DNA from: Streptomyces subrutilus
Lineage (GTDB): Bacteria > Actinomycetota > Actinomycetes > Streptomycetales > Streptomycetaceae
Length of the DNA stretch: 64,000 bases
Direction of reading: 5' to 3'
NCBI RefSeq assembly: GCF_008704535.1
Contig: NZ_CP023701.1
Location: forward strand, 1,612,001-1,676,000
Within the stretch, counting starts at the first letter, position 1; every line of letters begins with the position of its first letter. The notes under the pieces are model-generated. The model had not been told where the DNA came from. It did no database searches and was given only the letters and a program-made list of their open reading frames with translations. A program made the position numbers and the translations under genes. Of this stretch, positions 14,692 to 28,627 are shown piece after piece.

Positions 14692-14721
14692 CCGTATCCG
14701 CTACGGCCGTATCCGCTACGG
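14692..14721. repeat. Perfect 15-bp tandem duplication over the ggt stop codon
   Basis: CCGTATCCGCTACGG occurs twice in direct succession (14692-14706 and 14707-14721). The second copy contains the TAG stop codon of the gamma-glutamyltransferase gene (14716-14718, read on the minus strand), so the duplication copied the end of that gene into the intergenic space without changing the protein. Confidence 0.8.
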
Positions 14722-16521
14722 CCTGCCGTACGGGTGGACCACCATCGCCGAGCCCCCGCCCCGGCGGACCGGCTCCGCGGCCGCCAGCCAGCGCCCGTCG
14801 GGCAGCCGCTGCACACCGGTCGCCGCGCCGATCTCCGGGTTCGGCCGGAACCCCTGGCCGATCGCCTCCAGTTCGGCGCGGACCGGACTGTCCCACAGGG
14901 CCGGCTCGACCTCGGTCGTGGCCTGGTTGCGCTGGCTGGCCCGCGGCGCCGCGATGGCGTCGACCAGCGGCAGCCCGCGGTCCAGGTGGCCGAGCAGGAC
15001 CTGCAGCACGGTGGTGATGATGGTGGCGCCGCCCGGAGAGCCCACCGCGAGCACCGGACGTCCGTCCTCCAGCACGATGGTGGGGGCCATGGACGAGCGC
15101 GGCCGCTTGCCCGGGCCGGGCAGGTTCGGGTCCGGGACGCCGGGGGCGGCCGGGGCGAAGGAGAAGTCGGTCAGCTCGTTGTTCAACAGGAAGCCGCGGC
15201 CCGGGACGGTGATGGCGCTGCCGCCCGTGGACTCGATGGTCAGGGTGTAGGACACCACGTTGCCCCAGCGGTCGGCGACCGTCAGGTGCGTGGTGTTCTC
15301 CCCCTCGTAGGTGGTGGGGGCGGCCTGTCCGGCGCCGCCGCAGGCCGCCGGGTTGCGCGGGTCCCCGGGGGCGAGCGGGCTGGTCAGGGTCCGGTCGGAC
15401 CGGATCAGGCAGCCGCGCGAGTCGGCGAACCGCTGGCCCAGGAGCTGACGGGTGGGCACGTCCACGGCGGCCGGGTCGCCGACCCAGCGCCCGCGGTCGG
15501 CGAAGGAGATCCGCGAGGCCTCGATGAAGCGGTGCAGGTACTGGGCCGGCGGGAGCGCGGACAGGTCGGTCCGCTCCAGGATGTTCAGCGCCTCGCCGAC
15601 CGTGGTCCCGCCGGACGAGGAGGGAGCCATGCTGTACACGTCCAGGCCGCGGTAGCTCACCTGGGTGGGGGCCTGGCGCTTCGTCTCGTACGCCCGCAGG
15701 TCGCGGCCGGTCAGGTCGCCGGGGCGCACCGTGCGGGTGGCGGCCGGGTCCACGGGGGGTGTCCGTACGGCCCGGACGATGTCGTCGGCGATCGGGCCCC
15801 GGTAGACCGCGCCGGTGCCCTTGCGGCCGAGTTCTGCGTAGGTGGCCGCGAGGTCCGGGTTCTTGAAGGAGGAGCCGACGACGGGCAGGGCGCCGCCCGG
15901 CAGGAAGAGCTTCGCGGTGGCCGGGAAGTCCTTGAAGCGGTCCTGGTTGGCCTCGGTCTGGGAGCGGAAGGTGGCGTCCACGGTGAAGCCGTCGCGGGCC
16001 AGTTTCTCGGCCGGCCGCAGCAGTTCGCGCAGCGGGCGGGTGCCCCAGGCGTCGAGGGCGCTCTTCCAGGTCGCGGGCGTGCCGGGGACGCCGACGCCCA
16101 GGCCGCTGGTCTGGCCCTCGGCGAAGGGGATGGGGACGCCGTTCTCCTGGAACAGCGTCGCGGTGGCCGTCGCCGGGGCGGTCTCGCGGCCGTCGACGGT
16201 CTGTACGCGGCGGGTCTTGGCGTCGTAGTACACGAAGTAGCCGCCGCCGCCGATCCCCGCCGAGTAGGGCTCGGTGACGCCGAGGGCGGCTGCGGTGGCG
16301 ACCGCCGCGTCCACGGCGTTGCCGCCGGAGCGCAGCACGGCGATGCCCGCGGCCGAGGCGTCGGCGTCGACGCTGGCGACGGCGCCGCCGTAGCCGGCCG
16401 CCACGGGGGTCTTGGCCGGGCTCCCGCCGGGCGGGGCGGACGGCGGGGCTGCGGCCCCGGTGGAGACCAGTGCCCCGGCGAGGGCGACGAGCGCTAGGTG
16501 GCGTGCGGCGGGACGACGCAT
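14716..16521 (-). CDS. ggt: Gamma-glutamyltransferase, secreted
   Basis: This 601-residue N-terminal nucleophile hydrolase cleaves gamma-glutamyl bonds of glutathione and related compounds. The autoprocessing site and catalytic threonine are in GENTTHLTVAD (T410), separating a large subunit from a small subunit of about 190 residues. Other hallmarks are GGNAVDAAVA (67-76), GIGGGGYFVYYD (89-100), RSSMAPTIV and GSPGGATI. The N-terminus RRPAARHLALVALAGALVS is a signal peptide, so the enzyme acts outside the cytoplasmic membrane. GGAGGAAACGG precedes the ATG. It is monocistronic and convergent with map. Confidence 0.95.
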   Translation of the reverse strand: MRRPAARHLALVALAGALVSTGAAAPPSAPPGGSPAKTPVAAGYGGAVASVDADASAAGIAVLRSGGNAVDAAVATAAALGVTEPYSAGIGGGGYFVYYDAKTRRVQTVDGRETAPATATATLFQENGVPIPFAEGQTSGLGVGVPGTPATWKSALDAWGTRPLRELLRPAEKLARDGFTVDATFRSQTEANQDRFKDFPATAKLFLPGGALPVVGSSFKNPDLAATYAELGRKGTGAVYRGPIADDIVRAVRTPPVDPAATRTVRPGDLTGRDLRAYETKRQAPTQVSYRGLDVYSMAPSSSGGTTVGEALNILERTDLSALPPAQYLHRFIEASRISFADRGRWVGDPAAVDVPTRQLLGQRFADSRGCLIRSDRTLTSPLAPGDPRNPAACGGAGQAAPTTYEGENTTHLTVADRWGNVVSYTLTIESTGGSAITVPGRGFLLNNELTDFSFAPAAPGVPDPNLPGPGKRPRSSMAPTIVLEDGRPVLAVGSPGGATIITTVLQVLLGHLDRGLPLVDAIAAPRASQRNQATTEVEPALWDSPVRAELEAIGQGFRPNPEIGAATGVQRLPDGRWLAAAEPVRRGGGSAMVVHPYGRP

Positions 16522-16622
16522 CCGTTTCCTCCAGTCGACGGCCGTTCAGAACCGGCTGCGGCACTGTAACTTCGGCGCACCCCCCACGTCAGGAGGACCT
16601 CCCGGCCGCTACCATCCGCCGC

Positions 16623-17348
16623 ATGAACGACGACGTGCGCAACATCGTGCTCGGGGTGATAGCCACGGCCGTCAGCGGCGGGTTCGGCTGGTTCTCCCGG
16701 ACCTACCTGTGGCGCCGCGCCCTGCGCCGCAAACAGGCCTTCTTCGGCCTGCCGACCGGTTCGGACTGCCTGTTCGTGGTCAACCGCCAGATGGGCGGCA
16801 CCGATTCGTCCCTGCACCGCAGCGACGCGTTCGCGCTGCTGGAGATCTCGGCCCTGATCAAGGACTGCGGGGCGAACGTGCAGATCGTCACCCACGACGA
16901 GTCCCGGCAGGGCTTCGGCGAGCGGGCCGAGTTCTGCGTGGGCGGGCCCGTCTCGAACGTCCGCACCGCGGCGCACCTGATGTCCATGCTGCCGGGGGTG
17001 CGGGTGGACCTCACCAGTGCGCGGGGCCCGGAGCGGGGTTCGATCAGCGTCGGCGGGGAGGCGTACCTCTGGGACAAGGGCCTGGTCGAGCACGTCCTGC
17101 TGGCACGCCTGACGAACGGTCGGGGCGCCCGCCCGGTCTTCCTGCTGTCCGGTCAGACCGCCAACAGCAACCAGGCCGCCGCCCGCTACCTGGCCCGGCA
17201 CCACCAGCGGCTCGCCCGCACCTACGGCGCGGACTCCTTCTGCCTGCTGCTGAAGGTCGTCAACTCGGACGCCTACGGTCCGGACGTGACGGAGCTGGTC
17301 GCGGACGTCACCGCGCCGGCCCGGACACCCGCAGCGGCAGCCGCGTGA
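16623..17348 (+). CDS. Membrane-anchored protein of unknown function
   Basis: I do not recognise this 241-residue protein. Residues about 7-25 (VRNIVLGVIATAVSGGFGW) form a single membrane segment followed by a basic stretch RRALRRK, which predicts an N-out, cytoplasmic-body topology. The body alternates short hydrophobic strands and helices (CLFVVNRQMGG, ANVQIVTHDES, GERAEFCVGGPVSN, ARPVFLLSGQTANSNQAAARYL, CLLLKVV), resembling a Rossmann-like ligand- or nucleotide-binding domain. It is monocistronic and its last 41 bases overlap the convergent P450 gene. It is clearly a gene by codon pattern and complete architecture; the function is open. Confidence 0.8.
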   Translation: MNDDVRNIVLGVIATAVSGGFGWFSRTYLWRRALRRKQAFFGLPTGSDCLFVVNRQMGGTDSSLHRSDAFALLEISALIKDCGANVQIVTHDESRQGFGERAEFCVGGPVSNVRTAAHLMSMLPGVRVDLTSARGPERGSISVGGEAYLWDKGLVEHVLLARLTNGRGARPVFLLSGQTANSNQAAARYLARHHQRLARTYGADSFCLLLKVVNSDAYGPDVTELVADVTAPARTPAAAAA

Positions 17349-18570
17349 TCCCGTTGATGAAGTTGGAGACCAGCCGGCGCGGCCGGCCGGCCTGTTCGGG
17401 CGCGGGCATGGCGGCGCACCACTCCTCGTACAGGACGCGCAACTGGAGCCGGGCGAAGTGCGCGCCGAGGCAGACGTGCGGACCGTCCCCGAAGGAGACG
17501 TGCGGGTTGGACGGGCGGCCGAGGTCGAGGCGGTCGGGGGCGGTGAACACCCGCTCGTCGTGGTTGGCGGAGGCGTGGAAGACGACCACCTTGTCCCCGG
17601 CCCGGATCGGCTGCCCGGCCAGTTCGGTGTCGGCGGCGGCCGTGCGGCGGAAGCTGAGCACGGGCGGGTGGACGCGCAGGAGCTCCTCGACGGCCCGCTC
17701 CACCGCGACCTCGCCGGCCGCGAGCCGCCGGTAGGCGTCGGGATCGCGGGCCAGGGCGAGCAGGCCGCCGGGGGCGGCGGCGCGCACGGTGTCGTTGCCG
17801 GCGACGGTGAGCAGGAAGAAGAACATCTCCAGCTCGGCGTCGTCGAGCCCGGCCTGGGCGAGCGAGGTCAGCACGTCGTCGCCCGGGTGGCGGCGCTTGT
17901 GGGCGGCCAGTTCGCGGGCGTACGCGAACATCTCGCCGAGCAGCGCCGGGGAGCGCGGGTCGAGCGGCCGGCCGTCCGGGCCGAGCCGGGGTGCGGGCGC
18001 GTCCTCGGGGTCCTGGTAGCCGATGATCCGTACGGTCCAGTCCAGGAGCAGCGCCCGGTCGCCGGCCGGGACGCCCAGCAGGTCGGTGAGGTTGAGCAGC
18101 GCGTACTCGTCGGTGACGGTGCGCACCACGTCGGCGGCCCCGCCCTCGGCCCGCTCCCGGGCGCCGGCCAGCAGCCCGCGGGCGCGCTCGCGCACCCGGC
18201 CGGCGAAGGCGTCGACGCGGGCGGGCGTGAAGGCCCGGGACACCACCCGGCGCAGCCGGCCGTGGTCGCCGCCGGGGTCCTGGTTGAGCATGGTGCGGCG
18301 CAGGAACGGCAGGTCGGCCGGGTCCGGGTCGCGGATCTGGGTGGCCCCCAGCCAGGAGGAGTACGTGCGGTGGTCGCGCAGCACCGCCACGACGTCGGCG
18401 TGCCGGGTGACGGCCCAGAAGCCCGGGCCGGCGGGCCAGCCCAGCACCTCCGGCTCGGCCTGCCGGGCGACCGGTCGGGCGTCGCGCAGCAGCCGGTAGC
18501 GGTCGAGGGGGACGGCCTCGGCGTACAGGCGCGGGTCGAAGACGTCGGGGGCGTCCGCGGCGTGGTCCAT
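17308..18570 (-). CDS. Cytochrome P450
   Basis: This 420-residue soluble bacterial P450 has the heme-binding motif FGDGPHVCLG (C367), the I-helix oxygen-activation motif TVAGNDT (255-261), the ExxR motif EELLR (E296-R299) and the heme-propionate histidine region near NQDPGGDHGRLRR. Its substrate cannot be read; no ferredoxin or reductase gene is adjacent and there is no biosynthetic cluster around it. SSWLGATQIRDPDPADL resembles P450s acting on terpenes or steroids, but this is weak. Its 3' end overlaps the convergent unknown gene by 41 bp. Confidence 0.93.
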   Translation of the reverse strand: MDHAADAPDVFDPRLYAEAVPLDRYRLLRDARPVARQAEPEVLGWPAGPGFWAVTRHADVVAVLRDHRTYSSWLGATQIRDPDPADLPFLRRTMLNQDPGGDHGRLRRVVSRAFTPARVDAFAGRVRERARGLLAGARERAEGGAADVVRTVTDEYALLNLTDLLGVPAGDRALLLDWTVRIIGYQDPEDAPAPRLGPDGRPLDPRSPALLGEMFAYARELAAHKRRHPGDDVLTSLAQAGLDDAELEMFFFLLTVAGNDTVRAAAPGGLLALARDPDAYRRLAAGEVAVERAVEELLRVHPPVLSFRRTAAADTELAGQPIRAGDKVVVFHASANHDERVFTAPDRLDLGRPSNPHVSFGDGPHVCLGAHFARLQLRVLYEEWCAAMPAPEQAGRPRRLVSNFINGITRLPLRVSGPAR

Positions 18571-18627: not shown

Positions 18628-19149
18628 TCAGCGCCGGAGGTCGCAGCGGTCGGCGGGCAGGGCGGTGTCGGTACCGATCAGGGCGACCCGGCTGAGGGTG
18701 TCCGGCTCACCGGCGAAGGCGAGCGTGCACACCAGCTGGCCGCGGCCCAGCGCGGAGAGGCCGCCCACCGCGATGGGCAGCCGGGCCGTGACCGTGGGCA
18801 CCCCGTCGGGCGCCGCCCACGACACCGCCGTCGCGTCGAGCGCTTTGATCTGCATCCGGGGCAGCTCCGTGCCGAGGTCCGACGACCGCCCCGAGCTCCC
18901 CGGCCCGGCGAGCAGTTGCGCGACCAGGCCTCCCGGCGGGAGCCGGTAGCCGTCCGCCATCAGCGGGTACGGGACCAGCCGGTCGCCCTCCGGCGCGATG
19001 AAGTAGAGGACCGGACCGGCGGAGCCGGGGACCACCACCCGGGCGGCGCTGCCGGCCTCGATCACACCGGTGGGTGCGATGCCGCAGCCGGCGAGCAGCA
19101 GCGTGCCCAGCGCTCCCGCCGCGGCGGCGAGCGCCCTGGTGCCGTTCAC
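18628..19149 (-). CDS. Lipoprotein co-transcribed with a sensor kinase
   Basis: This 173-residue lipoprotein has the lipobox LLLAGC (Cys22) after a hydrophobic leader. The mature part contains PVLYFIAPEGDRLVPYPLM and GGLVAQLLAGPGSSG, reminiscent of the GerMN/LpqB-like sensor lipoproteins that sit beside actinobacterial two-component systems. The GTG start overlaps the kinase stop (GTGA), so translation is coupled. By analogy with CseA and LpqB it may modulate the kinase on the outer face of the membrane; that is inference. Confidence 0.85.
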   Translation of the reverse strand: MNGTRALAAAAGALGTLLLAGCGIAPTGVIEAGSAARVVVPGSAGPVLYFIAPEGDRLVPYPLMADGYRLPPGGLVAQLLAGPGSSGRSSDLGTELPRMQIKALDATAVSWAAPDGVPTVTARLPIAVGGLSALGRGQLVCTLAFAGEPDTLSRVALIGTDTALPADRCDLRR

Positions 19150-20588
19150 GCGTGGGCCTCCAGGGGCATGTCGAGGGTGAACACGGCTCCTCCGAAGGGT
19201 CCGTTGGCGGCCCGGAGCGTGCCGCCGTGCAGGCGTACGTTCTCCAGGGTGATGGCCAGGCCCAGGCCGCTGCCGGCGGAGCGGGTGCGGGCCGCGTCGG
19301 CCTTGAAGAAGCGGTCGAAGATGTGCGGCAGCACCTCGGGGGCGATCCCCGGTCCGCTGTCGGCGACCTCGACGAGCAGCCGTTCGCCGTCCTCCCCCGG
19401 CCCGGTCCGCACGGTGATCAGCACCGGGGCGCCGCCGTGCCGCAGGGCGTTGCCGACGAGGTTGGCGAGGACCACGTCGAAGCGGCGCGGGTCCAGCCGG
19501 GCCCGGACGCCGGGCGGCAGGTCGGTGCGGACCCGGCCGTCGTCCCAGTGGCGGCGCTCCAGGGTCTTGCCCACCGCCACGGCGAGGTCCACGTCGTCCA
19601 GGTTGAGCTCGGCGGCGCGGGCGTCGAAGCGGGAGATCTCCATGAGGTCCTCGACCAGGACGGCGAGCTTCCCGGTCTCGGCGCTGACCAGCCGCAGCGC
19701 CTTGGCGGTGTCCGGGTCGAGCTGCTCGGCGTCCTCGTCGAGCACCTCGGTGACGGCCAGCATCCCGGCGAGCGGGGTGCGCAGTTCGTGCGAGACGTCG
19801 GAGGCGAAGCGCCGGGCCCGGACCTCGGCCTCCCGCAGCTCGGCCACCGAGTGCTCCAGGGCGCGGGCGGTCTCGTTGAAGGTGCGGGCGAGGCCGGCGA
19901 GTTCGTCGGCGCCGCGCACCTCGATCCGGGTGTCGAGGCGGCCGAGACCCAGCCGCTGGGCGGCCCGGCGCATGTCGCGGACGGGCCGCAGCACGCTGCG
20001 GGCGGCCAGCAGGGCGGGGATGACGGCGAGGGCGATGGCCGGGACGGCGCCCTGCTTGGCTGCGTCGACCATCGCCTGGACGGTCCGGCTCTCGTCGGTC
20101 AGGGGCACGCTGGCGAAGTAGACGGCGCCGGTGGGCTCGGCGACCCCGCCGTGCGGGAAGACCGCTGCGATGCCGATGGTGAGGTAGGGATCGCCGGAGC
20201 CGTTCTCGACCCGCTGGAAGGCTCCGTACCGGTTCTCCCGGACCTTCCGGCGCAGGGTGTCGGTGACCGGGCCGAAGGGGGCCGCGGAGGAACTGGATGC
20301 GCGCAGGGACCCGTACTCGCCGAAGACCGTCCAGGGGTGCGGCTTGCCGCGCTTGCCGAGTTCGGTGACGACCGCCTGGAGCTGGTCCTGGGTCATCGGA
20401 AGCCTCGTCGTCTGCTGCTCGATCTGCTCCCGCAGGCTGCTCACGGCCGTGTCCTGGGTCTGCTTGAGGATCGCGTTGCGCGCCTTCTGGTAGGTGAGGG
20501 CGGCGGTGGTCACCGCGCAGATCGCGGCGACCAGCAGGAAGGCCGCGATCAGCCGGGTGCGCAGGCCCAGCGGGGCGATGCGTCGCAC
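19146..20588 (-). CDS. Sensor histidine kinase
   Basis: This 480-residue membrane kinase has TM1 at about residues 12-32, an extracytoplasmic sensor of about 145 residues, TM2 at about 180-200, a HAMP linker (RPVRDMRRAAQRLGLGRLDTR), the phosphoacceptor H267 in FASDVSHELRTP, and N/G boxes in LVGNALRHGG, VEVADSGPGI and GSGLGLAI. It is the fourth gene of an operon starting with the femX-like gene and murJ, nine bases after its response regulator. The cell-wall neighbours suggest it monitors the envelope; the ligand is unknown. Confidence 0.93.
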   Translation of the reverse strand: MRRIAPLGLRTRLIAAFLLVAAICAVTTAALTYQKARNAILKQTQDTAVSSLREQIEQQTTRLPMTQDQLQAVVTELGKRGKPHPWTVFGEYGSLRASSSSAAPFGPVTDTLRRKVRENRYGAFQRVENGSGDPYLTIGIAAVFPHGGVAEPTGAVYFASVPLTDESRTVQAMVDAAKQGAVPAIALAVIPALLAARSVLRPVRDMRRAAQRLGLGRLDTRIEVRGADELAGLARTFNETARALEHSVAELREAEVRARRFASDVSHELRTPLAGMLAVTEVLDEDAEQLDPDTAKALRLVSAETGKLAVLVEDLMEISRFDARAAELNLDDVDLAVAVGKTLERRHWDDGRVRTDLPPGVRARLDPRRFDVVLANLVGNALRHGGAPVLITVRTGPGEDGERLLVEVADSGPGIAPEVLPHIFDRFFKADAARTRSAGSGLGLAITLENVRLHGGTLRAANGPFGGAVFTLDMPLEAHA

Positions 20589-20597
20589 GGCGCCGTC

Positions 20598-21281
20598 CTA
20601 CAGCGGACCGAAGCGGTAGCCGAAGCCGCGCACGGTCTGGATGTAGCGGGGGCTGCGGTCGGGGTCCTCGATCTTGTGGCGCAGGCGGCGGACACAGGCG
20701 TCCACCAGACGGGCGTCGGCGTGGTAGCTGTGGTCCCACACGTATTCCAGGAGCTGCTGGCGGGAGAAGACCTGCTCGGGCGAGGCCGACAGGTGCAGCA
20801 GGAGCTTGAGCTCGCTGGGGGCGAGGGCGAGCCGCTCGCCGTTCTTGGCGACGGTCAGTCCGGAGCGGTCGATGGCCAGTTCGCCGTGGTGGGCCACCTC
20901 GGGGCGGCCGCCCGCGGGGTCGCTGAGCCGGCGCAGCACGGCCTTGATGCGGGCCTCGATGACCTCGGTGCGGGCGGGTTTGACGATGTAGTCGTCGGCG
21001 CCGGCCTCCAGGCCGACGACTATGTCGAAGTCGTCCCCGCGCGCGGTCAGCATGATGATCGGGACCTCGCTGGTGTCCCGTATGCGGCGGCACACCTGGA
21101 CGCCGTTGATCCCCGGCAGCATGAGGTCGAGCAGGACGAGCTCGGGGCGGAAGGACCGCATCAGGGCGAGTCCCGCCTCTCCGGTCTCGGCGGCGCTCAC
21201 CTCGTGGCCGCGGCGGCGCAGGCCGAGGCCCACGCCCTCCCGTACGGACGGGTCGTCCTCGATCAGCAGTACGCGTGGCAT
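20598..21281 (-). CDS. OmpR/PhoB-family response regulator
   Basis: This 227-residue protein has a receiver domain with the acidic pocket EDD (8-10) and phosphoacceptor D52 in LVLLDLMLPG, the conserved lysine in YIVKPAR, and a C-terminal winged helix (SELKLLLHLSASPEQVFSR, DACVRRLRHKIEDPD, YIQTVRGFGYRFGPL). It resembles AfsQ1/CseB-type regulators, but it is not next to a sigma factor. Only four bases separate it from the murJ stop, so it is expressed with the wall genes. Confidence 0.93.
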   Translation of the reverse strand: MPRVLLIEDDPSVREGVGLGLRRRGHEVSAAETGEAGLALMRSFRPELVLLDLMLPGINGVQVCRRIRDTSEVPIIMLTARGDDFDIVVGLEAGADDYIVKPARTEVIEARIKAVLRRLSDPAGGRPEVAHHGELAIDRSGLTVAKNGERLALAPSELKLLLHLSASPEQVFSRQQLLEYVWDHSYHADARLVDACVRRLRHKIEDPDRSPRYIQTVRGFGYRFGPL

Positions 21282-21285
21282 CCGC

Positions 21286-23049
21286 TCAGTATCCCCGGCC
21301 GGTCCGGTGCTCTTCCTCCTGCTTACGGCCGGTCTTGCGCCGCAGGGAGTGCAGGAGGTCGGTGATCTCGGTCAGCCGCAGCGGCCCGGCGAGGAGGACG
21401 ACGACGAGCGCGAGCGCGACGGTTCCCGTGCCGGCCGCGGCGAGGTTGCCCAGGGGGTCCGCGGCGCGGGCTGCCGCGTACCCGGCGGCGCCCGCCGGTA
21501 CGCAGGCGGCCAGCATCCGCAGGTGGGTCCGCAGGGCGCTCTCCCGGCGCCCGGTGCGGGGGCCGGTGCGCGGGCCGAGCCTGCGGGCGAGGGTGCGTGC
21601 GGTCACGGCGGCGCCCGCGACGAAGGCGGCGGAGGAGGCGGCGGCCATGCCGGTGACGGCCCAGCGCGGGGGCAGCAGGACGTAGGCGGCCGCGGAGAGG
21701 GCCGCGTTCGAGGCCGCGATCACCAGGTTGAGGAAGAAGGGGGTGCGGGTGTCGGAGAGCGCGTAGAAGCCGCGGGAGAGCACGTACTGCGCGGAGAACG
21801 CGATCAGGCCGGGGGCGAAGGCGGCGAGGATGCCCGCCATGACCTCGATGTCGGCGGGGCCGGTGCGGCCGTACTCGAAGACGCTGCCGATCACCCAGGG
21901 GGCGAGGGCGGCGAAGAGGGCGGCCGCGGGCACGACGAGGGCGGCACTGGAGCGCAGCGCGTACGAGACGTCCCGGCGGACGGCGGCCAGGTCGCCGTCG
22001 GAGGCGGCGGAGCTCATCCGGGGCATCAGGGCGGTGACGAGGGAGACGGTGACGATGCCCTGGGGGACGATCCACAGCTGGTAGGCGTTGCTGTAGGCGG
22101 TGTACCCGGCGCCGCCGGCCAGCCCGGCGTCGACGGCGTGCTGTCCGGTGGCGGTGGAGAGCCGGGTGACGACCCAGTACGCGAGCTGGTTGGTCAGGAC
22201 GAGCAGGACCAGCCAGCCCGCGTTGCGCAGCGGCCGGCCGAGGCCGCTGCCGCGCCAGTCGAAGCGGGGGCGCCAGCGGAAACGGGCGGCGCGCAGGGAG
22301 GGGGCCAGGGCGAGCGCCTGCACCACGATGCCGGCGGTGGTGCCCAGGCCCAGCAGCCGGGTGTCGGCCGCGGTGAGGCCGTCCGCGGAGTCGTGGGAGA
22401 GGAACAGGAAGAGCCCGAAGACGCCGATGATCACCAGGTTGTTGAGGACGGGGGCCCACATCATCGCGCCGAACCGGCCGCGGGCGTTGAGCACCTGGCC
22501 GAGCAGGGTGAACAGTCCGTAGAAGAGGATCTGCGGCAGGCAGTAGCGGGCGAGCGCCACCGTGGTGCTCTCCTGGGCGCCGCTGTAGCCGGTGTAGACG
22601 GAGACGATCAGCGGGGCGGCGAGGACGGCCGCGGCGGTGAGCAGCACGAGGGCCGCGGTGCAGGCGGTCAGCAGCCGGTCGGTGTAGGCGGCGCCTCCGT
22701 CGCGGTGCTCCTTGGCGGCGCGGACCAGTTCGGGGACGAAGACGGCGTTCAGGGCGCCGCCGACCAGCAGGATGTAGAGGATGTTCGGGACGGTGTTGGC
22801 GACGGCGTAGCCGTCGCCGAGCAGTCCGGTGCCCAGGGCCGCCACGACGACCGCGGAGCGGACGAAGCCGGTGGCGCGGGAGACCAGGGACCCGGCCGCC
22901 ATCAGGGCGCCGCTGCGCAGCACCGATCCCCGGGCCGGCGCGGCGGCGGTCGGCTGCGCGGCCGCGTCCCGGGCGACGGCGCGGGCCGCGGCGGAGGGGG
23001 GCGGGGCCGGTGCGGGCGGGGCCGCGGGGGTGTGGGAACCGTGGTTCAC
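21286..23049 (-). CDS. murJ: MurJ-family lipid II flippase
   Basis: This 587-residue polytopic protein with about fourteen membrane segments belongs to the MurJ/MviN branch of the MOP superfamily, which moves lipid II across the membrane. Characteristic stretches are SLVSRATGFVRSAVVVAALG, ANTVPNILYILLVGGALNAVFVPEL, AYQLWIVPQGIVTVSLVTALMPRMS and SAQYVLSRGFYALSDTRTPF. I chose the GTG at 23049, which overlaps the upstream femX-like stop (GTGA). The Streptomyces housekeeping murJ is known to lie near the parAB region, which is absent here, so this is probably an additional paralogue tied to the two-component system. Confidence 0.92.
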   Translation of the reverse strand: MNHGSHTPAAPPAPAPPPSAAARAVARDAAAQPTAAAPARGSVLRSGALMAAGSLVSRATGFVRSAVVVAALGTGLLGDGYAVANTVPNILYILLVGGALNAVFVPELVRAAKEHRDGGAAYTDRLLTACTAALVLLTAAAVLAAPLIVSVYTGYSGAQESTTVALARYCLPQILFYGLFTLLGQVLNARGRFGAMMWAPVLNNLVIIGVFGLFLFLSHDSADGLTAADTRLLGLGTTAGIVVQALALAPSLRAARFRWRPRFDWRGSGLGRPLRNAGWLVLLVLTNQLAYWVVTRLSTATGQHAVDAGLAGGAGYTAYSNAYQLWIVPQGIVTVSLVTALMPRMSSAASDGDLAAVRRDVSYALRSSAALVVPAAALFAALAPWVIGSVFEYGRTGPADIEVMAGILAAFAPGLIAFSAQYVLSRGFYALSDTRTPFFLNLVIAASNAALSAAAYVLLPPRWAVTGMAAASSAAFVAGAAVTARTLARRLGPRTGPRTGRRESALRTHLRMLAACVPAGAAGYAAARAADPLGNLAAAGTGTVALALVVVLLAGPLRLTEITDLLHSLRRKTGRKQEEEHRTGRGY

Positions 23050-24257
23050 CGGCGGGCCAGGTACGCCTGGAAGGCCTTGTAGAGGGCCGTGTTGGCGTAT
23101 CCGTCCATCGGGGTCTCCCATTCGCCGAGCGTCTCGACGACCTGCCCGCCGGTGCCGAGCTTCCAGCGCAGCAGCCCGAACGCGCGTTCGTCGGGGTCAA
23201 GGGTGGAGGGTACCCCGCGCATGTCGTACTCGTCCGCGCCCAGGGCATGGGCGTCGCACAGCATCCGCCACTGCAGGGCGTTGCTGGGGCGGACCTCGCG
23301 GCGGTGGTCGGCGGAGGCGCCGGTCTGGTACCAGACCCGGCCGCCGGCGACGACCATGGTGTGGGCGGCGAGCACCTCGCCCCGGTGGACGCCCAGGTAG
23401 AGCCGCATCCGGCCGGGCTCCTCCGCGTTGAGGGCCGCGTACTGCCGCTCGTAGTACGCGAGGGAGCGGCCGAGCCGGAAGCCGTCGCGCTCCTCGGTGA
23501 CGCACAGCAGCCGGTAGAACTCGGGCAGGTCGGCGGCCGTGCCCAGGAAGGTCCGCACCCCGGCCTTCTCGGCCTTGCGGACGTTGCGCCGCCACTCCTG
23601 GTTCAGGCCGGCCCACAGGTCGTCGGCGGACCGGCCGGCGAGCGGGACCCGGAAGACGTGGCGGGGCTGGGCGTCGCCGTCGTCCTCGCCGCCGCAGCGC
23701 TTCCAGCCGCGGGTGCGCAGCCGGTCGGCGAGGGCGGCGCCGACCGCGTCCACCTCCGTGGCGAGCACGTCGGAGATCTGCCGGCCGGGGCCGGTCGCGG
23801 ACTTGACGGTGGCCGCGTCCCAGCGCCGGTAGGCGGGGGTGGGGCCGATCCGGACGGCGAAGGCGCCCGCGGAGCGCAGGTGCCGCAGGAGCGGGGTCAG
23901 CCAGCGGTCGACGTGCGGGTCGGACCAGTCGGCGACGGGGCCTTCGGGAAGGTAGGCGAAGTATTTGCGGGTACCGGGCAATTGGCGATAGAGAACGAGC
24001 CCGGCGCCCGTGGTGACCCCGTCGCCGTCGTGCCATCCGAGGGTCTCCGCGCGCCACAGGTCCTTCACCCGCGCCCACGACGGGTACTGCAGGAAGCTGG
24101 CCCCGCGGTGGCGGGAGAGGAACGCCCGGTACTCGGGGGCGGACAGCGGCCGGACCACGGACTCGCGCTCCCGGCGCCCGTCCCGGCCGTGCTCGCCGGA
24201 TGGGGTGCGGTGCTGTTCCTGGGCCTGCTGGGCGGGGTTCACGAGCAGTGCGCACAC
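23046..24257 (-). CDS. FemX/FemABX-family peptidyltransferase
   Basis: This 403-residue protein has a GNAT-like double fold typical of Fem transferases, which add amino acids from aminoacyl-tRNA to the lipid II or peptidoglycan side chain. Recognisable pieces are SFLQYPSWARVKDLW, WAGLNQEWRRNVRKAEKAGV, EERDGFRLGRSLAYYERQY, GEVLAAHTMVVAGGRVWYQTGASAD and RPSNALQWRMLCDAHALGADEYDMRG. GGAAGG lies nine bases before the GTG. It heads the leftward operon femX-murJ-regulator-kinase-lipoprotein, so wall cross-bridge editing and lipid II export are co-expressed with a sensory system. Confidence 0.88.
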   Translation of the reverse strand: MCALLVNPAQQAQEQHRTPSGEHGRDGRRERESVVRPLSAPEYRAFLSRHRGASFLQYPSWARVKDLWRAETLGWHDGDGVTTGAGLVLYRQLPGTRKYFAYLPEGPVADWSDPHVDRWLTPLLRHLRSAGAFAVRIGPTPAYRRWDAATVKSATGPGRQISDVLATEVDAVGAALADRLRTRGWKRCGGEDDGDAQPRHVFRVPLAGRSADDLWAGLNQEWRRNVRKAEKAGVRTFLGTAADLPEFYRLLCVTEERDGFRLGRSLAYYERQYAALNAEEPGRMRLYLGVHRGEVLAAHTMVVAGGRVWYQTGASADHRREVRPSNALQWRMLCDAHALGADEYDMRGVPSTLDPDERAFGLLRWKLGTGGQVVETLGEWETPMDGYANTALYKAFQAYLARR

Positions 24258-24377
24258 GACTGTCGGCCTTCCGTTGCGTCCGGGTGGTGTCGCAGAGGAC
24301 TCTCACAGCGGACCGTGACCGCGGCGCGCGGCGATTGTGACCGGACGATGACCGTTTCGCTGCGGTCGACGTCACAC

Positions 24378-24398
24378 CGGAAAAGGGGACCTTTTCCG
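24378..24398. promoter_or_regulatory. Perfect inverted repeat between femX-like and L,D-transpeptidase genes
   Basis: CGGAAAAGG-GGA-CCTTTTCCG is a 9-bp perfect inverted repeat in the 213-bp divergent intergenic region. It may be an operator shared by both envelope transcription units, or a hairpin in the transpeptidase leader. Around 24314-24355 there are also three TGACCG repeats. Confidence 0.5.
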
Positions 24399-24470
24399 CC
24401 GAATGCGCAACCTAAAGTCGTCGTGCTCGCTCTCTATTTGCGAACGATCATTACTTCGGAGGGGTTTTCG

Positions 24471-25691
24471 TTGAGCCGCAGCAGCCGTACCGCCCTGTCC
24501 CGTCGACGGGTCCGCCACGCCGCCCTCGCGGGGACCGCGCTCCTCGCCGCCACCCTGACCGCGTGCGGGGGCGGTTCGGGAGCCGCCGGCGCGGGCGGCG
24601 CGGCGGAGATGAAGAAGAAGCCGGACATGGCGGTTTCGGTGAACCTCACGGGTGACCGGGTGAAGGCCGGCGAGCCGGTCACGGTGACCCTCGCCGAGGG
24701 GAAGCTGGCGCTGGTGAAGGTGACCGACGCCAAGGGCGGGGAGCTGCCGGGGAAGATATCCGACGACGCCCGCACCTGGACCTCCGAGCGCAATGCCGCT
24801 CCCGGCACCGACTACGCGGTCGAGGCGCAGAACACCGACAGCCAGAGCGCCTCGACCCGGTTCGCCACCTCGGCCGCCGACAAGGTGAACAAGCTCAAGA
24901 TCAACGTACCCAAGGGCAGCACGGTGGGCGTGGGCATGCCGGTCTCCGTCGTCTTCGACAACCCGGTGGCGAACAAGGCCGAGGTGGAGAAGGCCCTGAA
25001 GGTCACCACCTCGAACGGCACCGAGGGCTCCTGGGGCTGGTTCAAGGACTACTCGGGCAGCGACCGGATCGACTGGCGGCCCAAGGAGTACTGGAAGTCC
25101 GGCACCGACGTGAAGGTGGACATGAACCTGAACGGGGTGGACTCCGGGAAGGGCGGCGGCCTCTTCGCCCGCGACTACACCACCGAGTTCAAGGTGGGCA
25201 AGGACCGCCGGATGGAGGTCAGCCTGGACACCCGGAAGATGAAGGTGACCGAGGACGGCCAGGTGGTCGAGACGATCCCCGTGTCGGCCGGCACCCCGGG
25301 CGGCCAGAAGGCCTCGTGGTCCGGGAAGATGGTGCTGATGTCGAAGGAGGGCACCATCCGGATGGACTCGCAGACCGTGGGTCTGGGCGACTCCTACGAC
25401 AAGATGGTCGACTACTCGATGCGGCTGACCTGGTCGGGCATGTACGTGCACGCCGCGCCGTGGAACACCGCCAACTTCGGGCGCGCCAACACCAGTTCCG
25501 GCTGTGTGGGCATGAGCACCTCCGACGCCGCCGACTTCTACGCGAAGGTCCAGGTCGGCGACCCCTTCGAGGTGGTCGGTTCGGGATCCAAGGGCAACGC
25601 GCCGCTGGGCAACGGCTACGGCGAGTGGAACCTCTCGTGGGACGAGTGGAAGACCAAGAGCGCACTGGCCGCGGGCGCGCAGAACGGCTGA
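24471..25691 (+). CDS. L,D-transpeptidase lipoprotein with Ig-like domains
   Basis: This 406-residue exported enzyme forms 3-3 peptidoglycan cross-links. The YkuD catalytic motif is complete: H327 in YVHAAPWN and C345 in NTSSGCVGMS. Before it lie two Ig-like domains (about residues 50-250), as in LdtMt2-type proteins, and a conserved C-terminal tail GYGEWNLSWDEWK. The leader ends in a lipobox LLAATLTAC (Cys32). The TTG start at 24471 is supported by GGAGGGG upstream; no better ATG or GTG follows before the leader. It is divergent from femX/murJ, which reinforces the envelope theme. Confidence 0.93.
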   Translation: MSRSSRTALSRRRVRHAALAGTALLAATLTACGGGSGAAGAGGAAEMKKKPDMAVSVNLTGDRVKAGEPVTVTLAEGKLALVKVTDAKGGELPGKISDDARTWTSERNAAPGTDYAVEAQNTDSQSASTRFATSAADKVNKLKINVPKGSTVGVGMPVSVVFDNPVANKAEVEKALKVTTSNGTEGSWGWFKDYSGSDRIDWRPKEYWKSGTDVKVDMNLNGVDSGKGGGLFARDYTTEFKVGKDRRMEVSLDTRKMKVTEDGQVVETIPVSAGTPGGQKASWSGKMVLMSKEGTIRMDSQTVGLGDSYDKMVDYSMRLTWSGMYVHAAPWNTANFGRANTSSGCVGMSTSDAADFYAKVQVGDPFEVVGSGSKGNAPLGNGYGEWNLSWDEWKTKSALAAGAQNG

Positions 25692-27022: not shown

Positions 27023-28627
27023 ATGCAACGCACCACCACCGCCGCGGCGGTGGCCGCCCTGCTGGCGGCAGCCGCCCTGGGCCTGGCCCCCCACCAGGCC
27101 CAGGCGGCCCCCGCGGCCGCGGCCGCACCCGCCCCGGCCCCGGCGAACGCTCACGCCGCCTCGCCGGAGCTGCGGTTCCACGACATCCCCGGCTCCGGCG
27201 GCATCACCCTGAAGGGCAACGTCTTCACCCCGGCCGGCGCCGAACCCGGCCGGACCTACCCCCTGATCGTGCTGCCGACCAGCTGGGGCCTGCCGCAGAT
27301 CGAATACGTCGTCCAGGCCAGGAAGCTCGCCGACGCCGGCTACGTCGTGGTCAGCTACACCTCCCGCGGCTTCTGGCTCTCGGGCGGACAGATCGAGGTG
27401 GCCGGGCCGCCGGACGTCGCCGACGTGTCCGCCGTCATCGACTGGGCCCTCGCCCACACCCCCGCCGACCCCGGACGCATCGGCCTCGGCGGGGTCTCGT
27501 ACGGCGCGGGCATCAGCCTGATGGCCTCCGCCCACGACAGCCGGATCAAGGCCGTGGTCGCGATGAGCGGCTGGGCCGACCTGATCGAGTCCATCTACTC
27601 GGGCCGCACCCAGCACCTCCAGGCCGCGGGAATGCTCGGCGCCGCCGGCTACCTCACCGGCCGCCCCGGAACCGAACTCCAGCGGATCCTCGGCGACTTC
27701 CTCGGTTCGAAGCTGGAGAACGAGCAGGCGATGATCGACTGGGGACGTACGCGCTCCCCGGCCGCCCAGCTGGACCGGATCAACGCCAACGGCGCCGCCG
27801 TCTTCCTCGGCAACGCGTGGGGCGACACCATCTTCCCGCCCAACCAGTACGCGAAGTTCTACGAGGGGCTGACCGGTCCCAAGCGCCTGGAGTTCCGCCC
27901 CGGCGACCACGCGACCGCCGAGGGCACCGGCCTGCTCGGCCTGCCCAACGACACCTGGACGAGCGCCCACCGCTGGTTCGACCGCTACCTCAAGGGCGAG
28001 CGCAACGGCATCGACACCGAGGCCCCGGTACAGATCAAGTCGCGCAGCGACGCCGGGTACGAGGGCTACGCCGACTGGCGGGCGGTGGGCGCCGGCGGCT
28101 CCGAGCGGCTCGCCCTGGCCGACAGCCAGCGCGTGTACGCCAACGTCGACTCGGGTGCCAACGGCGGGATCCTGCTGCTCACCAACCTCCTCGACCAGTT
28201 CCTGAAGACGCCCCCGGCCGTCTCCGTCCCCCTCCTCCCCCGCGCCTTCGCCGCCGTCTGGCAGTCAGAGCGCCACACCGAGGCCCGCCGCGTCCGCGGC
28301 ACGGTCCGGCTGCACACCACCGTGACTCCGACCAAGGGGGACGGCACCTTCGTCGCCTACCTGTACGACGTGGGCCCGCTCGGTGTCGGCAAGCTCGTCA
28401 GCAACGCCCCGTACACCTTCCACGGCAAGACCCCGAACCAGTCCTTCGGAGTGGACCTGGAGCTCTTCTCCACCGCCTACGACGTACCCGCCGGCCACCG
28501 GCTCGCCCTCGTCGTCGACACCGTCGACCCGCTCTACATCGAGCACAACCCCTCCGGCGCGCAGCTGACCTTCTCCTCGCCGCGCACCGATCCGTCGTAC
28601 GTCTCGGTACCGCTGCGCGAGCAGTGA
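27023..28627 (+). CDS. Secreted CocE/X-Pro-peptidase-like alpha/beta hydrolase
   Basis: This 534-residue protein starts with a signal peptide (cleavage likely after AQA near residue 29) and an Ala/Pro-rich spacer. The alpha/beta hydrolase core shows the nucleophile elbow GGVSYGAG, an acid candidate in GNAWGDTIFPP and a histidine in RPGDHATAEG. The C-terminal 170 residues form a jelly-roll-like domain (VRGTVRLHTTVTPTKGDGTF, GHRLALVVDTVDPLY) as in CocE/NonD and S15 family hydrolases. It is an extracellular esterase or peptidase of unknown substrate. GAGGAGCGATCG precedes the ATG, and an array of GTTAC sites controls its promoter. Confidence 0.88.
   Translation: MQRTTTAAAVAALLAAAALGLAPHQAQAAPAAAAAPAPAPANAHAASPELRFHDIPGSGGITLKGNVFTPAGAEPGRTYPLIVLPTSWGLPQIEYVVQARKLADAGYVVVSYTSRGFWLSGGQIEVAGPPDVADVSAVIDWALAHTPADPGRIGLGGVSYGAGISLMASAHDSRIKAVVAMSGWADLIESIYSGRTQHLQAAGMLGAAGYLTGRPGTELQRILGDFLGSKLENEQAMIDWGRTRSPAAQLDRINANGAAVFLGNAWGDTIFPPNQYAKFYEGLTGPKRLEFRPGDHATAEGTGLLGLPNDTWTSAHRWFDRYLKGERNGIDTEAPVQIKSRSDAGYEGYADWRAVGAGGSERLALADSQRVYANVDSGANGGILLLTNLLDQFLKTPPAVSVPLLPRAFAAVWQSERHTEARRVRGTVRLHTTVTPTKGDGTFVAYLYDVGPLGVGKLVSNAPYTFHGKTPNQSFGVDLELFSTAYDVPAGHRLALVVDTVDPLYIEHNPSGAQLTFSSPRTDPSYVSVPLREQ

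Follow-up and report, generated by a model that had tools for sequence, protein, structure and literature searches.

A femX-murJ-ldt cassette with its own two-component system in Streptomyces: a plausible inducible wall-reprogramming unit resembling van

Gene content of the locus

We analyzed a stretch of 64,000 nucleotides of Streptomyces subrutilus (contig NZ_CP023701.1, positions 1,612,001-1,676,000, part of a single-contig 7.6-Mb genome; this whole stretch is called the window below). Positions 18628-25691 of the window hold a divergent locus, in which an L,D-transpeptidase gene (ldt) on the plus strand faces a minus-strand operon of femX, murJ, a response regulator (RR) gene, a sensor histidine kinase (HK) gene and a lipoprotein gene. 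We call these genes the cassette; L numbers are our labels for individual loci. The features, in window coordinates, are as follows.

18628-19149, minus strand: lipoprotein with one predicted GerMN domain, last gene of the operon (lipobox LLLAGC and AlphaFold2 model; relatives follow the HK gene in many cassettes)
19146-20588, minus strand: sensor HK with HAMP, HisKA and HATPase_c domains (domain and NCBIfam matches)
20598-21281, minus strand: OmpR/PhoB-type RR, AfsQ1/CseB-like (domain and NCBIfam matches, alignment)
21286-23049, minus strand: second MurJ-type lipid II flippase (TIGR01695 equivalog)
23046-24257, minus strand: second FemX-type (FemABX) aminoacyl transferase (PF02388)
24258-24470: divergent ldt/femX promoter region, between both start codons
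24315-24321, plus strand: third copy of the RTGACCG repeat, 22 bp ahead of the operator core (conserved column block)
24337-24352, plus strand: operator core GTGACCGGACGATGAC, a pair of repeats with an 11-bp spacing (scores of 14-16 of 16 in each of the 73 distinct regions)
24413-24418, plus strand: -10-like box TAAAGT of ldt, at a fixed distance from the operator start
24471-25691, plus strand: L,D-transpeptidase lipoprotein, LdtMt2-like, with Big_10 and YkuD domains and the motif TSSGC (TTG start chosen by us)

All six genes named by the original prediction were present, and its statement that the operon genes are joined by overlaps or gaps of at most nine bases was correct for the window (femX/murJ, 4-base overlap; murJ/RR, gap of 4; RR/HK, gap of 9; HK/lipoprotein, 4-base overlap). 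The packing was looser in other loci, where the murJ-RR gap had a median of 23 bases and a maximum of 238 and RR-HK gaps reached 257; 13 of the 80 rows of this gap survey had large negative murJ-RR values, caused by frame or hit errors. A sigma-70 promoter scan of the locus returned no site, and two terminator-like sites were found against a mean of 1.0 in shuffled sequences.

The FemX protein matched PF02388 at 132.6 bits as well as solved FemX/FemA structures (6snr, 1ne9 and 1lrz), and belongs to the FemX/FemABX family. It is one of two FemX proteins encoded in the genome and is 49-52% identical to housekeeping FemX, whose gene lies approximately 14 kb from that of housekeeping MurJ near the middle of the chromosome. 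When aligned with housekeeping copies (12 rows), it showed a one-residue insertion (RDGFRLGRS versus RDKFR-PRP) and a short C-terminal insertion, which suggests that its substrate may differ from that of the housekeeping enzyme. Another FemX-type gene, 49% identical, was seen on a linear plasmid of S. clavuligerus (L169), with no murJ or two-component system annotated within 5 kb.

The cassette MurJ is a TIGR01695 equivalog (352 bits; cut-off 235.55) and one of three MurJ-family matches in the genome, the others lying at 3,886,092 (the best-scoring, housekeeping copy, 48% identical to it) and 4,419,984 (26% identical over the aligned part). The gene at 4,419,984 lies near a glycosyltransferase-like and a deacetylase-like gene, labels given from the sequences with no domain scan. 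The cassette protein retains the Arg and Asp cavity residues of helices 1 and 2 (sRatgfvR and gD aligned), which we take to correspond to R18, R24 and D39 of E. coli MurJ.

The divergent gene encodes a YkuD-family protein resembling LdtMt2, with a Big_10 domain and a YkuD domain (PF03734, 62.2 bits) in which HAAPW...TSSGC supplies the catalytic His and the Cys of the (S/T)XGC motif. It is one of six Big_10 proteins in the genome; two of the others carry SHGC, a third carries SAGC and two were unmatched by the pattern. In one cassette branch (L102, L106, L114 and L121), the active site of Ldt reads SHGC, not SSGC.

The two regulatory proteins scored below the cut-offs of the NCBIfam families nearest to them. 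The RR had its best match to CseB (261 bits; cut-off 350) and reached 243 bits against MtrA (cut-off 300), and the HK had its best match to MtrB (277 bits; cut-off 450) and reached 92 bits against CseC (cut-off 700), so that neither was assigned to these families. The RR is 59% identical to the genome's own AfsQ1-like regulator, and the helix that we take to be the DNA-reading one has the pattern RLVDACVxRLR in both (RLVDACVRRLR in the cassette RR, RLVDACVQRLR in the AfsQ1-like RR). The closest paralogue of the cassette RR (64% identity; L046, G000:C1:1086237-1086929) is accompanied by an HK and a GerMN-type lipoprotein of its own; the 320 bases around its start contained no NTNAC-n6-NTNAC repeat.

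The cassette lipoprotein has a lipobox (LLLAGC) and is predicted to fold as a GerMN domain: its AlphaFold2 model (mean pLDDT 78.6) matched the GerMN domains of GerM at Z 10.9 and 10.1, with the next row at 6.1, and the best Foldseek E-value was 0.014. No Pfam family matched it at E 0.001, and a low-threshold Pfam scan also gave no GerMN match; its paralogue at L046 matched Germane at 21.6 bits (cut-off 23). Among loci with murJ and a long HK match, a strict GerMN-type motif followed HK in 55 of 66 murJ-seeded and 7 of 12 femX-seeded loci, and the lipoprotein was thus less constant than the other cassette genes. We used this strict count in place of an earlier loose lipobox pattern (76 of 79), which took in at least one wrong frame.

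Distribution, variation and joint inheritance of the cassette

The genomes and plasmids surveyed were samples. The FemX clade was found in 84 of 295 Streptomyces genomes, the window's included (E <= 1e-135, identity 66-100%), a count that also takes in the form with an extracytoplasmic function (ECF) sigma factor described below, and about 20-25% of the sampled Streptomyces species carry the cassette. In a first sample of 61 genomes, FemX identity was 73-100% in 16 and then dropped sharply to 55% or less, the level of housekeeping and other copies. Across the class, 13 of 296 genomes had a match at E <= 1e-120; 12 of these were Streptomyces, three solely through a copy of about 51% identity. 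One genome of another family matched FemX at 57% (L186) and has femX-RR-HK without murJ, perhaps an older form of the unit, with operator-like sites.

The five scored genes (ldt, femX, murJ, RR and HK) occurred together in 59 of 80 murJ-seeded and 12 of 15 femX-seeded loci. The original prediction would have been given up had there been no conserved linkage in other genomes; linkage proved to be strong across Streptomyces, and a reading of the genes as chance neighbours was rejected on the same counts. The synteny that the prediction had proposed to look for across actinobacteria was conserved in Streptomyces and not class-wide; the linkage of the cassette is thus a Streptomyces trait rather than an actinobacterial one. 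Of the three other femX-seeded loci, L058 lies at the end of a contig, L063 lacks RR and HK, and L066 lacks murJ. The remaining murJ-seeded loci comprised six that lack only femX, two without RR and HK, four with other gaps, some at contig ends, and nine that were scored as having murJ alone (L137, L138, L140, L143, L144 and L146, all outside Streptomycetaceae; L135 of Kitasatospora; L136, where femX is reversed; and L084).

The named loci with the most similar MurJ belong to Streptomyces of the virginiae/goshikiensis/katrae kind; S. virginiae NRRL ISP-5094 and S. katrae NRRL B-16271 are examples of cassette carriers. Of the 80 named loci, 28 form a virginiae-like group in which one particular P450 gene borders the cassette or its remains, and these account for 19 of the 59 complete cassettes. 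We regard the insertion at this site as old because the same flanking genes recur there. In the window these genes are found at 14716-18570 and 27023-28627 and encode the P450, an uncharacterized protein (in 27 of the 28 loci), a gamma-glutamyltranspeptidase and an S15 peptidase (in 25 of 28). Membership of a biosynthetic cluster was considered and rejected. The neighbours scanned were the P450, the gamma-glutamyltranspeptidase, the S15 peptidase, a TetR regulator, an MFS transporter, an M24 peptidase, an amino-acid-type ABC transporter and two others, in a domain scan that covered part of the window, and the nearest ones are not common to cassettes outside the virginiae-like group.

Outside that group, neighbouring genes mostly differed from locus to locus, with a few common to close relatives. 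In Streptomyces sp. H27-H5, a complete cassette occupies an unusual site without the virginiae-like neighbours (L067), and the usual site holds a reduced one with no femX and only a short HK match (L085). One copy is situated near a contig terminus (about 10 kb away, on a contig of 9.96 Mb), and S. cadmiisoli carries a complete cassette on a plasmid of 970 kb, where primase genes of opposite orientation flank it. Pairwise protein distances of femX, murJ, RR, HK and ldt were strongly correlated among 69 cassettes (r 0.905-0.963; a set that includes a few repeat views of the same locus) and among the 45 cassettes outside the virginiae-like group (0.769-0.937), and in each of the ten comparisons on the full set, none of 499 permutations reached as high a value. 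The murJ and femX trees, quick trees with long branches flagged, showed the same main groups by eye. Therefore, the cassette genes have travelled together.

The switch varies. In five loci, femX stands opposite murJ and an ECF sigma factor gene follows murJ: on the linear plasmid pFRL4 (L148), in S. avicenniae (L136) and in three further genomes (L187, L189 and L191). A related next protein was matched in three of these five loci, and L188 has femX and an ECF sigma factor gene without murJ. A single genome holds both the ECF-sigma form (L189) and the two-component form (L190). On plasmid p3211-1 we found a sigma factor, a small protein, murJ and an Ig-like/YkuD transpeptidase. What stays constant is the pairing of extra lipid II enzymes with a switch of the stress type.

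Plasmids of Streptomyces and Kitasatospora also carry lone murJ genes (L150-L156), whose products are approximately 48-56% identical to the window's MurJ and form their own clade in a quick tree. In four of the seven viewed, a gene for a transposase, an integrase or a plasmid primase lay within about 6 kb. One of them, on a plasmid of Streptomyces sp. KN37 (L152), lies a few kb from FxLD methyltransferase and lantibiotic dehydratase genes, a neighbourhood with a possible link to a wall-acting peptide.

The divergent operator

An AfsQ1-type operator, GTGACCGGAC[C/G]ATGAC or a near copy, was present in all 73 distinct ldt-femX regions, which derive from 76 loci with femX (match of at least 250 aa), murJ and ldt after identical regions were dropped. 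With one position left free, 52 regions scored 16 of 16, 19 scored 15 and two scored 14. The other strand gave best scores of 9-11, and 3,650 dinucleotide shuffles gave 9-14, only seven of them reaching 14. Six regions were selected for a FemX that resembled the window's least or that was an extra copy, and they are therefore not representative. A third RTGACCG stands 22 bp away, which places three repeats on one 11-bp phase; repeats phased in this way are usual for OmpR-type regulators. Furthermore, a -10-like box of ldt, T[A/G]NNNTC, begins 76-77 bp away from the start of the operator in 70 of the 73 regions, with variants such as TACAGT, TAGAGT and TAAAGT. No second operator was found in the murJ-RR interval among the 26 gaps longer than 40 bases (best scores 7-12).

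Within the 7.6-Mb genome, GTGACNGGANNATGAC had a single exact match, at the cassette operator; with one mismatch allowed, five more sites appeared, compared with two for a reversed control pattern. AfsQ1 of S. coelicolor binds GTnAC-n6-GTnAC (PMC6988585; this and the papers below are cited from part of their text), and most ldt-femX regions contain GTGAC-n6-ATGAC. At the AfsQ1-like locus of the genome (L047), GTGACAGGCCTGTGAC, which agrees with this published AfsQ1 motif, stands before a divergent ECF-like gene. Recognition of the operator by the cassette RR is thus a prediction from sequence, resting on these sites and on the likeness of its helix to that of AfsQ1. Common descent accounts for part of the operator's conservation, yet the operator columns are fixed although Ldt is only 51-60% identical between the window and the other main group.

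We also searched 2.3 kb in each of 13 partial or odd loci. The operator was found in six (scores 14-16) and absent from seven (10-12), with 11-13 on the other strand as a control. It was kept in L066, L069, L081, L083 and L097, which have other or partial damage, and was lost along with femX in L082, L085, L091, L110 and L119; L084 retains murJ alone. The joint loss is weak evidence on function, because one deletion that took out femX together with the promoter region would explain all five loci.

The conserved operator, the AfsQ1-like site and the alike helices together suggest that the RR likely controls ldt, femX-murJ and itself, and co-regulation of the cassette genes is well supported. 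The idea of an inducible alternative wall-assembly pathway, which the original prediction had put forward, is supported in part: the operator argues for one regulated unit that includes ldt.

Proposed role, known relatives and rivals

The nearest precedent for such a unit is VanRS-VanJKHAX of S. coelicolor, in which a two-component system lies near a second FemX-type protein, lipid II is reprogrammed inducibly and the genes are thought to be acquired; VanK is needed there because housekeeping FemX cannot branch D-Lac precursors (PMC4790382). In contrast, the cassette has no vanHAX at its locus, adds MurJ and an L,D-transpeptidase, and has an AfsQ1-like regulator. This precedent, and the presence of a second FemX under its own sensor, suggest a similar need for precursors that are badly handled by housekeeping FemX. 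Such an altered precursor is unlikely to be D-Lac-ended, because only one of the eight D-Ala-D-Ala-ligase-type matches in the genome is strong (6e-67; the next 4e-19). We also rejected the cassette FemX as the VanK of a van cluster, since no vanHAX gene lies at the locus and there is one strong ligase, in a genome-wide search that did not extend to vanH or vanX.

The regulatory part resembles AfsQ1/AfsQ2/AfsQ3-SigQ in its RR-HK-lipoprotein order (AfsQ1-Q2-Q3 in PMC9739842), its divergent target gene, its GTnAC-n6-GTnAC-type site and its DNA-binding helix. It differs in that the divergent gene is ldt and not the ECF sigma gene sigQ, and the genome's AfsQ1-like pair with its divergent ECF-like gene lies elsewhere (L047), so the two are not regarded as orthologous.

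MtrAB-LpqB is likewise an OmpR-type pair followed by a GerMN lipoprotein, LpqB being a GerMN protein. However, the MtrA and MtrB scores are below cut-off, the cassette lipoprotein has a single short GerMN domain, and the genome's MtrA-like regulator, so labelled from its sequence, is found elsewhere (L051). In the case of SigE-CseABC, CseB is the best NCBIfam match of the RR, a lipoprotein partner is present and the SigE regulon includes L,D-transpeptidases (PMC6767563), whereas the cassette RR falls below the CseB cut-off and no sigE is present at the locus; the main text of that paper has no mention of MurJ, FemX, a flippase or mviN. MglA, an alternative MurG of Streptomycetaceae found in 38% of strains, is also an accessory second lipid II enzyme, but it acts at a different step and is not described, in the part of the source used, as belonging to a regulated FemX-MurJ-Ldt unit (PMC8092295). 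In the portion of the open-access PMC literature covered, we found no description of a femX-murJ cassette with its own regulator, and a Streptomyces synteny paper contained none of six wall terms in the text available to us (PMC13118837). An inducible wall-reprogramming cassette that resembles van, with a gene combination not found in that open-access literature, is a plausible description.

We propose, with about an even chance of being right, that the cassette is a mobile back-up route, induced under envelope stress, by which lipid II is branched and exported and 3-3 cross-links are made, comparable to VanRS-VanK without D-Ala-D-Lac. The HK, probably tuned by the GerMN lipoprotein, would sense an envelope signal and phosphorylate the RR, which would bind the three RTGACCG repeats at 11-bp phasing in the divergent region. 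The bound RR would activate both ldt and the opposite operon, femX-murJ-RR-HK-lipoprotein, and the switch would thereby also raise itself. FemX would then branch lipid II precursors that housekeeping FemX handles poorly, the second MurJ would export the branched lipid II, and Ldt would close 3-3 links for which penicillin-binding proteins would not be needed. The 3-3 link of Streptomyces includes the glycine branch, so that FemX and Ldt would work one after the other on the same substrate. We infer as the net outcome a tolerance, or resistance, to an agent that blocks the lipid II cycle.

In favour of this proposal count the strong linkage, the correlated protein distances, the operator with its -10-like box at a fixed distance, the AfsQ1-like site and helix, the similar sites of L186, the patchy carriage with changing flanks and a plasmid copy, the femX-murJ loci with an ECF sigma factor, and the precedents of VanK and the alternative MurG. 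Several observations weigh against it. Parts of the cassette are not always kept, as L066 (no murJ) and L063 (no RR or HK) show, and 7 of the 80 murJ-seeded loci have ldt, murJ and RR with no scored femX. The operator is kept in L142, which has no femX match, and is absent from L071, which has a femX remnant. In L186, operator-like sites precede RR (14 of 16) and femX (13 of 16), at scores near chance (best 12-13 in other 15-16-kb stretches). The positions that we take to be Arg52 and Arg270 of E. coli MurJ are Tyr and Gln in the cassette MurJ; none of 20 aligned actinobacterial rows, the genome's housekeeping MurJ among them, has Arg there, and these residues may thus not define the MurJ family in actinobacteria. 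Ldt has S where LdtMt2 has H before GC (SSGC versus SHGC). An inactive transpeptidase was nevertheless rejected, because the published motif, (S/T)XGC, leaves that residue free (PMC12729407) and S predominates in relatives (99 of 104 loci with an ldt match, a count in which a locus can stand more than once; of 78 distinct active-site strings, 73 have S and the other five H). Finally, AfsQ1 is linked in the text consulted to nutrient signals and not to the wall (PMC6988585, PMC9739842).

This last point bears on a developmental role, which we think unlikely, in which the cassette would serve spore-wall or aerial-hypha assembly and its sensor would read a developmental or nutrient signal, as AfsQ1/Q2 do, rather than antibiotic damage. 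The shared AfsQ1-Q2-Q3 gene order (PMC9739842), the activity of AfsQ1 in glutamate-rich medium (PMC6988585) and the fact that the GerMN fold was solved for the sporulation protein GerM agree with it. However, a FemX clade limited to 84 of 295 genomes, with changing locations and a plasmid copy, is unlike genus-wide development genes, and the ECF-sigma versions fit an envelope-stress theme. It is also conceivable, although we doubt it, that the cassette is an orthogonal, transferable lipid II channel, in which FemX would make a differently branched lipid II preferred by its own MurJ as a second precursor stream, and which would move between chromosome and plasmid with a swapped switch (two-component or ECF) while the FemX-MurJ core is kept.

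Two rivals concern MurJ itself. MurJ is a member of the MOP superfamily, in which a variety of polymers are transported, and the third MurJ-family protein of the genome lies near glycosyltransferase-like and deacetylase-like genes; the second MurJ might therefore move another lipid-linked wall polymer, with FemX and Ldt as bystanders or attaching that polymer to the wall. Given a TIGR01695 score well over cut-off, the usual partnership with FemX and Ldt and the absence of a glycosyltransferase among the genes common to cassettes, this is very unlikely. A target-duplication defence, in which insensitive MurJ and FemX copies would protect against one natural MurJ- or lipid II-directed toxin and Ldt would only repair damage, is unlikely. 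Mobile, patchy and duplicated wall enzymes would be expected under it, and murJ is kept where femX was lost and stands alone on the seven other plasmid records viewed, which lack the cassette; on the other hand, the lone plasmid MurJ proteins are a separate clade in a quick tree, Ldt and FemX are retained with MurJ in most cassette loci, and we know of no inhibitor that would select such a cassette.

In well-studied bacteria the flippase MurJ is essential, and it has recently become a drug target; to our knowledge no natural route around it has been described. If the proposed back-up route is correct, a mobile second MurJ with FemX, Ldt and a sensor would provide a natural way around the final cytoplasmic and membrane steps in wall synthesis, and the operator would provide a ready reporter for finding compounds that act on the lipid II cycle.

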